A DNA stretch of 64,000 nt from Parasutterella excrementihominis YIT 11859 (GTDB lineage: Bacteria; Pseudomonadota; Gammaproteobacteria; Burkholderiales; Burkholderiaceae_F), in contig NZ_GL883760.1 of the NCBI RefSeq assembly GCF_000205025.1, positions 1 through 64,000 on the forward strand, given 5' to 3'. Both the position numbers and the translations under genes were made by a program. Of the stretch, positions 33,624-36,235 are shown one piece after another (position 1 is the stretch's first letter; each line of letters starts with the position of its first letter). The notes under the pieces are model-generated. The model was not told the DNA's origin. It made no database searches and was given only the letters and a program-made list of their open reading frames with translations.

Positions 33624-34316
33624 TTACATCTGCTTTTTAGCAAGTCCTGCCGCGCTGCTCTTCGGATAAAGCTTGATGAGCTTATCGAAAGTAGCCTTGG
33701 CTTCCGCAGTTTTCTTGGAATCCATCTGGGCCATACCGACCAACAGGTAGGCTTCCGGAACTTTGGCATGTTTGCTGTAGCCGGAAATCAGACGCTGCTC
33801 GGTGGCGATCGTCTGCGCAAAATTGCCTTTCATGTAGTAGCTGCTGCCAAGCCAGTACAGGGCATCGGGATAAACCTTTGTCTTGCTGTACTTCTGTGTC
33901 ATGCCTGAGAAGCATTTAATCGCTTGGTTGGCGTCGCCCTTTTGAAAGACGGACAAGCAGCGGTCAAGTTCCTGCTTTGCGGAAATCTCCCGATCAGAAG
34001 CGGCGGCTGCTGCCTTGGCCTTCGGATCCATTTCATTCAGGCGATTCGAAAGATCGTCATAAATGGTCTCGGCGTTTTGTTTTTCCTTACCGACGGAATT
34101 AGTCAGATCCTCCACTTTGCCGCGGAGCGTCTGAACTTCCTTCGTCAGTTTTTCCAGTCGGTCATACAGCGACATCTGCACTTCCTGCTGGGACTTCAGC
34201 TGATCCCGAAGTTCCAGGATGGCTTTGCGGGCTTCATCGTCTCCGAAGAGCGCCCATGCCGATGTATTGACGGACAACAGAACGGTGCCAAGGAGCACCA
34301 GCGCGATTCTTTTCAT
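33624..34316 (-). CDS. cpoB: Cell division coordinator CpoB
   Basis: Periplasmic protein that links peptidoglycan synthesis by PBP1B with Tol-Pal-driven outer-membrane constriction. The 230-residue product (formerly YbgF) has a Sec signal peptide ending near AWA, a coiled coil (about 28-85) for trimerisation, and a C-terminal TPR domain with motifs such as YPDALYWLGSSYYMKGNF and YLLVGMAQMDSKKTAEAKATF. It is the last gene of tolB-pal-cpoB, 6 nt after pal. Confidence 0.94.
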   Translation of the reverse strand: MKRIALVLLGTVLLSVNTSAWALFGDDEARKAILELRDQLKSQQEVQMSLYDRLEKLTKEVQTLRGKVEDLTNSVGKEKQNAETIYDDLSNRLNEMDPKAKAAAAASDREISAKQELDRCLSVFQKGDANQAIKCFSGMTQKYSKTKVYPDALYWLGSSYYMKGNFAQTIATEQRLISGYSKHAKVPEAYLLVGMAQMDSKKTAEAKATFDKLIKLYPKSSAAGLAKKQM

Positions 34317-34322
34317 AAGAAA

Positions 34323-34814
34323 TTACTTGTTGAGCATGTAGTGGATATCGACTCTGCGGTTCTCGTAGTAAGCCGCTTCGTCATGGCCTTCGGCTTTGGG
34401 TTTTTCTTTACCGTAGCTGATCGTTTCGATCTGCTGAGGAGAAACGCCCAGGAGTGTCATACGTTCTTTGACGGCTTCAGCTCTCTTCTGACCCAGGGCC
34501 AGGTTGTATTCACGTCCGCCGCGTTCGTCGGTATTGCCTTCCAGACGAACGTTCAGGTTCTTGTGAGCAGCCAGAAACTGAGCGTGATTGGTCACGACCG
34601 GCATCTGGTCGGGAGAGACGGTATAGCTGTCAAAGTCAAAGTGAACTTCGCGGTTAGCGAGCGGGCCGGTCTTAGAGCTCAGAGCTTCTTCAACTGAAGT
34701 TCCGTCAGTGATAGAACCGGCTTTATCCTTATCCAGATCTACTGTAGAGCAAGCCGAGAGCGAAAGAGCGACAGCTGCTGCGGCTGCGCAAATAGCAAAT
34801 CTTGAAGAGATCAT
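34323..34814 (-). CDS. pal: Peptidoglycan-associated lipoprotein Pal
   Basis: Outer-membrane lipoprotein that binds peptidoglycan and TolB. The 163-residue protein has lipobox LSAC (acylated Cys near residue 20) and a C-terminal OmpA-like domain with EGNTDERGGREYNLALGQKRA. The start is ATG 34814, preceded by AGGA and giving a proper lipoprotein signal; the frame is open further upstream but those codons lie within tolB and its gap. It lies 13 nt after tolB. Confidence 0.96.
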   Translation of the reverse strand: MISSRFAICAAAAAVALSLSACSTVDLDKDKAGSITDGTSVEEALSSKTGPLANREVHFDFDSYTVSPDQMPVVTNHAQFLAAHKNLNVRLEGNTDERGGREYNLALGQKRAEAVKERMTLLGVSPQQIETISYGKEKPKAEGHDEAAYYENRRVDIHYMLNK

Positions 34815-34827
34815 CTTCTTCGTCCTT

Positions 34828-36123
34828 TTATTTAATGGTGGGACCCCAAGAGGGTTCGCGAATGTCTCCACTGGTACCCGAGAGTCGGGAACGAGTGCTT
34901 CCATCCGTGGAGACTGTGGACAGAACACCCTTACCTCCAACCTCGGAGGCGTAAATAATCATGTTGCCGTTCGGCGAGTAGCTCGGCGATTCGTTCTTTC
35001 CGATTTCGGAAAGCGGAATGACGTTGCCGGTAGCCAAATCCTGCTGAACCAGCTTGAAGTGGCCGCCTGTGCGAACGATATAGGCGACTTGGTCGTTTTT
35101 CGGACTTACCGCCGGGCTAATGGCATAGGCATTTCCGAAGCTGATACGCTCGGCCGAACCGCCCACCACAGGTTTTCTGTAAATCTGCGGGTTGCCGCCG
35201 CGGTCGCTTGTGAAGTAAATATATTTGCCGTCGGGAGAGAATGCCGGCTCAGTATCAATGCTGCTGCCGGTAGTGAACTGTCTGAGATTCTGTCCGTTAA
35301 CATCCAGCAAATAAATTTTGGTTCCGCCGTCCTTAGACAGAGCCACAGCCAACGTACCGCCGTCGGGACTAAAGGCAGGAGCACTGTTGTTGCCGCGGAA
35401 TGCCGCCACTTGACGGCGCTTGCCTGTGCTCAGATCATGAATCCAAACCGTCGGCTTACCCGTCTCAAAAGAGGTGTAGGCGATCTGTCGGCCGTTGGGA
35501 GACCAATCAATGGAAATAATCGGATGTCTGATGCGAAGGGCAACCTGCGGGTTATACCCGTCGCTGTCGGCGACCATGATGGCGTAGTTGTTCTTACCTT
35601 GCTGAGAAACGTAGGCAATACGAGTTGCGAAATCGCCTTTTTCCCCGGTCAGGCGTTCAAAAATTCGGTCTGCAATCTTATGGGCATAAAGACGCAGGTC
35701 ATCTTTCGGGGAAATATAGGAAGCCTCATCGGTTTCCTGCTTTTTCACCGGATCAAAGAGACGGAACTTGATTTCATAGCGTCCGTCAGCTGCACGTGTT
35801 ACGGAACCGTCGGCAAAAGCACCGACTCCGGCTGTGCTTAAAGCTTTCCAGTCAGGATCCTTATCGAGTGCCGTTGCGGCATCACAGGAAACCAAACGGA
35901 AGAAACCGCTACGAACTAAATCGTTGCCGATAATCTCGGCAATATTCTCAGGTGCTTCGCTGTTTCCGAAAAAAGGCTGGATAGCGATTGGAAATTGGTT
36001 TGCCCCGACGCCCTGAATATTCACAAAAAGCTGTGCAAACGCCGGTTCGGCTGCTGCGATTCCTGCCAAGCCGACGGCCTTAAGAAACACGCGTCGATCC
36101 AAGCCCAAGTCACGTCTGACCAT
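34828..36123 (-). CDS. tolB: Tol-Pal system protein TolB with twin-arginine-like signal
   Basis: Periplasmic beta-propeller of the Tol-Pal system, which signals to Pal and TolA during division. After the N-terminal D1 domain, the propeller shows repeated blades with FSPDGGTLAV, FSPDGKYIYFTSDRGG and YSPNGNMIIYAS. The N-terminus reads DRRVFLKAVGLAG followed by AEPAFA, which matches the Tat consensus RRxFLK, whereas TolB is normally a Sec substrate. The start is uncertain: ATG 36123 (with GAGGGAG very close), or ATG 36135, ATG 36141 or GTG 36156; all include the RR motif. tolQRA are not upstream. Confidence 0.93.
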   Translation of the reverse strand: MVRRDLGLDRRVFLKAVGLAGIAAAEPAFAQLFVNIQGVGANQFPIAIQPFFGNSEAPENIAEIIGNDLVRSGFFRLVSCDAATALDKDPDWKALSTAGVGAFADGSVTRAADGRYEIKFRLFDPVKKQETDEASYISPKDDLRLYAHKIADRIFERLTGEKGDFATRIAYVSQQGKNNYAIMVADSDGYNPQVALRIRHPIISIDWSPNGRQIAYTSFETGKPTVWIHDLSTGKRRQVAAFRGNNSAPAFSPDGGTLAVALSKDGGTKIYLLDVNGQNLRQFTTGSSIDTEPAFSPDGKYIYFTSDRGGNPQIYRKPVVGGSAERISFGNAYAISPAVSPKNDQVAYIVRTGGHFKLVQQDLATGNVIPLSEIGKNESPSYSPNGNMIIYASEVGGKGVLSTVSTDGSTRSRLSGTSGDIREPSWGPTIK

Positions 36124-36235
36124 ACGCTCCCTCATCTCCATAAAACTAACAAGCACATTGAGTTTATCTTAATGTGCTAAAAAGTCTCGGACCGCGATCC
36201 GATGACTAAATAATCTGAATTTTGTATCAATAATT

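Follow-up and report, generated by a model that had tools for sequence, protein, structure and literature searches.

A predicted twin-arginine export signal on TolB of Parasutterella excrementihominis and its relatives in the Burkholderiales

The tolB locus and its signal sequence

When the first 64,000 nucleotides of a Parasutterella excrementihominis YIT 11859 contig (NZ_GL883760.1; hereafter the window) were analyzed, the genes tolB, pal and cpoB were found consecutively and in this order (Table 1). The TolB protein scored 464.5 bits with the TolB equivalog model TIGR02800 (curated cut-off 343.15), and a Pfam scan identified TolB_N and PD40 repeats. Comparison with solved TolB structures gave a best E-value of 2.7e-83, and several matches spanned residues 37-429. 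TolA is encoded elsewhere in the genome (133.9 bits, cut-off 59.45). Judged by its sequence matches, the window TolB is an ordinary TolB apart from its export signal.

The open frame containing tolB has its 5' end at a GTG (36156). The ATG at 36123 is the likelier start since the sequence AGGGAG lies 3 bases ahead of it, and the same twin arginine (RR) is retained with any other upstream start of the frame. The sequence-only reading had assigned the signal to positions 36030-36156; its right edge is the upstream GTG and had to be moved, and the RR pair lies inside the likelier signal given in Table 1. The open frame upstream of tolB resembles purH by eye. Between the two, a hairpin resembling a terminator, with a T run after it, was observed; shuffled sequences average 0.5, so that it is weak evidence.

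Table 1 Features of the tolB locus and a further Tat-signal protein in the window
Feature	Position	Strand	Basis or remarks
tolB coding sequence, 431 codons + stop, ATG at 36123	34828..36123	-	TIGR02800, Pfam, structures, AGGGAG
Predicted Tat signal peptide MVRRDLGLDRRVFLKAVGLAGIAAAEPAFA, 30 residues	36034..36123	-	TIGR01409, matrix score, conservation in relatives
Twin-arginine motif RRVFLK, residues 10-15	36079..36096	-	RR in 41/41 clade TolBs
RR pair, residues 10-11	36091..36096		
TIGR01409 match	36049..36102		17.5 bits, cut-off 16.7
pal	34323..34814	-	TIGR02802 136 bits, cut-off 125.35; start MISSRF
cpoB (ybgF)	33624..34316	-	TIGR02795 91.9 bits, cut-off 90.1
Terminator-like hairpin, then T run	36187..36202	-	between purH-like gene and tolB
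Second Tat-signal protein, MTFTRRTFMETT..., ~505 residues	27176..28693	+	FAD_binding_2 flavoprotein

The signal was read as MVRRDLGLDRRVFLKAVGLAGIAAAEPAFA followed by Q, with the mature part beginning QLFV. Cleavage is predicted from the sequence after AFA, an AxA site (AFA-Q) in the same register as that of Sec-type TolB signals. The residue context of the motif is DRRVFLK, close to the Tat consensus S/T-RRxFLK, which has hydrophobic residues after the twin arginine. The signals of the neighbouring proteins served as controls and both lack the RR pair: that of Pal is a Sec-type lipoprotein signal with an LSAC lipobox, and that of CpoB is of Sec type (MKRIALVLLGTVLLSVNTSAWA).

That the N-terminus (DRRVFLKAVGLAG...AEPAFA, found on the minus strand) fits a Tat pattern had been proposed by the sequence-only reading and was confirmed: in a whole-genome search, TIGR01409, the curated NCBI Tat-signal model, matched it above the cut-off (Table 1). 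At E-values of 1 or lower this model gave 39 matches in the genome, 29 of them flagged over the cut-off. When three whole window proteins were scanned with Pfam and NCBIfam, no Tat-signal match was obtained at E-values of 1 or lower; this result says little because the filters drop weak short matches, and the whole-genome search did find the TIGR01409 match.

A score matrix was also built from 27 other TIGR01409 matches in the same genome. The window TolB scored 20.1 and the 27 source signals scored 10.1-33.4 (leave-one-out). All 24 gammaproteobacterial TolBs remained at or below 7.5, and none of 1599 windows of mature TolB reached 8.

A Tat signal is expected to have an uncharged core of moderate hydrophobicity, at least about 13 residues long. 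The core hydrophobicity of the window signal (1.98) is at the top edge of the Tat controls and thus borderline: it exceeds 27/28 other TIGR01409 matches of its own genome and is lower than 23/24 gammaproteobacterial TolB signals, 17/18 from the rest of the family (the sister group, see below) and 59/69 other order-level TolB signals. The earlier description of the h-region as weakly hydrophobic therefore held only in part, against most of the TolB signals compared but not against the Tat signals of the same genome. We also applied a strict Tat-like pattern, which requires 13 consecutive uncharged residues. The window TolB fails it because a K at +5 and a glutamate in the c-region leave ten uncharged residues between them.

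Conservation in the clade and the Tat machinery

The family sample consisted of 67 genomes, in 60 of which a TolB was found over the cut-off. Eight genera (g1, g2, g4, g8, g9, g15, g16 and g17; 43 genomes) represent the clade of the window, with 41 readable TolB N-termini including that of the window. The sister group comprises 24 genomes from ten genera with 18 readable TolBs. In the TolB tree the 41 clade sequences form a single clade (support 100/99).

Clade relatives without the RR pair were looked for, and none was found among the 41 readable TolBs; in each of them RR starts 20-25 residues ahead of the mature domain, whose start is conserved. Because the clade signals were aligned on RR, the zero entropy of these two positions merely repeats this count, and it is the flanking positions that carry the information. 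Residues ahead of the pair are variable (positions -6 to -3, entropy 3.4-3.5 bits). Directly before RR, S, N or T is present in 32/41, while L, F or V occupies +3 in all 41 and L occupies +4 in 32/41. The pair is encoded by 11 different dicodons, and K occurs at neither R position. For comparison, the n-regions ahead of RR contain 16 K vs. 8 R, and 473 of the 1711 basic residues in the mature clade proteins are K. From these alignments we judge that the RR pair of the clade TolBs is not accidental.

The strict Tat-like pattern was found in 38/41 clade TolBs (the window is among the three failing) and in 1/18 of the sister group; with the looser rule that was used for the tree, the counts were 40/41 and 1/18, respectively. 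The median core hydrophobicity was 1.72 for the clade, 2.36 for the 18 sister TolBs and 1.65 for the Tat controls of the window's genome. Sister-group signals are mostly plain hydrophobic and Sec-like; the Tat-like exception is L016 (MQRRTLLQALG), and RR was found at -30 to -15 in 5/18. Among the same-clade controls, the Tat pattern was observed in 1/45 Pal loci and 1/20 CpoB loci.

The own-genome matrix was tried as a sorter of all TolBs and was rejected as too loose. It is not a clean classifier because 5/41 clade members score below 10, and 5/18 sister TolBs, 5/45 Pal and 2/20 CpoB proteins reach 10 or more. When TIGR01409 was applied at E-values of 0.1 or lower to six relatives with Tat-like TolBs (G049, G050, G063, G034, G035 and G017), other proteins were listed and TolB was absent. 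Since the scores give exceptions in both directions, the argument is drawn from the conservation of the RR pair and its flanking residues, and from no single score.

TatABC make up the Tat translocon. The genes tatA, tatB and tatC are consecutive in the window's genome, and TatC is present in 43/43 genomes of the eight clade genera. The best-ranked other TIGR01409 matches of the genome mostly have the usual Tat anatomy. When eight of these proteins were scanned with Pfam, seven contained FAD, Fe-S or molybdopterin domains and one gave no match. The window TolB shares with these classical substrates the RRxFLx motif, the Ala/Gly-rich core and small residues at the cleavage site, but differs from them in having no cofactor domain. 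The window encodes one further protein with a Tat signal, a flavoprotein (Table 1). On one contig of the genome, a 42-residue frame (L070, G000:C91:29537) and a molybdopterin enzyme (L068, G000:C91:33089) carry near-identical Tat signals; the short frame is perhaps a remnant or broken copy.

TolB signals in the wider Burkholderiales

In a second Burkholderiales family (f48, probably the one that contains Comamonadaceae), 50 TolBs were compared. RR was present at -30 to -15 in 46/50, and 38/50 were Tat-like by the looser rule and 31/50 by the strict pattern; 12/50 reached 10 with the own-genome matrix. Four of four Polaromonas TolB loci have RR and are Tat-like, and one Rhodoferax TolB is without RR. 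The f48 and Polaromonas proteins resemble the window TolB in their RR-type, Ala-rich signals. However, the Tat-type signal is unfixed in f48, where 12/50 TolBs are Sec-like by the looser rule. In the rest of the order (69 TolBs), RR was found at -30 to -15 in 14/69, and Tat-like signals were found in 4/69 (looser) and 6/69 (strict).

Outside the order, the strict pattern was found in 0/24 gammaproteobacterial TolBs and in 4/43 from other classes, some of the latter being unconvincing by eye. Single TolBs with RR-type N-termini in other classes of the phylum (L206, L208 and L231, of which L206 is convincing by eye) are possibly further independent cases.

The Tat-type TolB signal is thus a lineage-wide pattern and is not peculiar to this genome. 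The sequence-only reading had called such a signal unusual for the Tol-Pal system. This is correct when E. coli is the reference; among the sampled Burkholderiales families, however, it is common in two. Whether it arose once was considered with an order-level TolB tree. A single gain before the split of the window clade and f48, with later losses in the Sec-like lines, would agree with the position of the two Tat-rich groups near each other. We regard it as a doubtful alternative to two or more gains, as the tree requires 18 state changes, at least 10 of which are forced by starred branches, and four Sec-like rows lie among the branches joining the two groups. These branches have support values of 28-78, and because of this the tree is silent on a shared origin.

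Export route of TolB

We consider it very probable, from the motif and its conservation, that TolB of the clade moved from Sec to Tat and that the window TolB is exported folded in a Tat-dependent manner. Such a switch had been proposed by the sequence-only reading, and the conservation of RR in the clade TolBs and of TatC in the clade genomes supports it. RR signals direct folded proteins to the Tat translocon (PMC4257090), and on this basis TolB would be folded while still in the cytoplasm and reach the periplasm as a normal TolB. The protein would be synthesised with its twin-arginine signal, fold before transport, be recognised by TatBC via RRVFLK and pass the membrane in folded form through TatABC. 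The predicted cut after AFA would then yield an ordinary periplasmic TolB, the partner of TolA and Pal. The switch would be an old one, fixed throughout the sampled clade.

Under a different explanation, the signal belongs to the Sec type and RR occurs in its basic n-region by chance, and TolB would cross the membrane in unfolded form, like the E. coli protein. PMC4257090 also names TolB among the SecB clients of E. coli, and SecB is encoded in the window's genome and in 63/67 family genomes. The core of the window signal lies near the upper hydrophobicity limit of the Tat controls, and RR also occurs at -30 to -15 in sets that are mostly Sec-like, namely the rest of the order and the sister group. 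However, a chance pair is hard to reconcile with RR in every clade TolB, spelled in 11 ways and never replaced by K, with consensus residues at -1, +3 and +4, or with a TIGR01409 match over the cut-off, and we regard this explanation as highly improbable. A signal accepted by either Tat or Sec, in which RR is kept as Tat takes part of the flux, overlaps with the Tat-dependent export preferred here and has somewhat better prospects, although it too is unlikely. It would suit the borderline core hydrophobicity and the f48 TolBs, where RR is nearly general yet the strict pattern is found in fewer. Against it, RR was never lost in 41 rows, which suggests a need for Tat. Loss of SecB was also considered as the cause of the move from Sec to Tat and was rejected because SecB is still present, in all 18 genera and in Tat-type and Sec-type genomes alike.

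Extended to whole Burkholderiales clades, the proposal is that TolB has come to depend strictly on Tat and is folded before its export, a change that more than one lineage may have made, and that Tol-Pal would then be Tat-dependent. On the sequences compared, this wider claim appears rather probable, less so than the route proposed for the window TolB itself.

The window TolB resembles its counterparts in E. coli and other gammaproteobacteria in TIGR02800, the TolB_N and PD40 propeller architecture, the tolB-pal-cpoB order and the presence of TolA in the genome; it differs from them in its Tat-type signal. AmiC of E. coli is a Tat substrate. SufI (FtsP) is named as a Tat substrate in the title of PMC2661564. 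SufI and AmiC are soluble division proteins that, like TolB, are targeted to the septal ring (PMC2661564). They differ from TolB, a component of Tol-Pal, in being a multicopper-oxidase-like protein and an amidase. Among the literature matches listed, in which subscription papers are mostly not included, no title or abstract opening reports a Tat-type TolB, and the word TolB is absent from the text of PMC3305326 on Tat in alphaproteobacteria; databases may already flag such signals.

Tat is usually viewed as a route for cofactor-loaded enzymes. If the proposed route is correct, a conserved cofactor-free envelope protein has been kept on Tat across genera, and core machinery can swap export routes. 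Tol-Pal would rely on Tat, as would the integrity of the outer membrane and cell division through it, and Tol defects would be predicted in tat mutants of these bacteria. Natural TolB pairs, one of Sec type and one of Tat type, would provide material for asking what sets the export route.

We also analyzed the cysteine content of TolB, which is 0.39 per 100 residues in the clade, 0.04 in the sister group and 0.07 in f48. It was concluded that this content cannot serve as separate evidence that TolB folds in the cytoplasm: it rises in the Sec-type CpoB too (0.39 in the clade vs. 0.00 in the sister group; Pal, 0.00 vs. 0.65), and the f48 TolBs show no rise. No DsbB match was found in the window's genome, and matches in the clade are weaker (76 bits or lower), whereas 21/24 genomes of the other genera exceed 100 bits. 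The clade thus lacks DsbB matches as strong as those of the sister group, which offers a simpler reason for the cysteine shift and suggests that the clade has a different periplasmic disulfide system.
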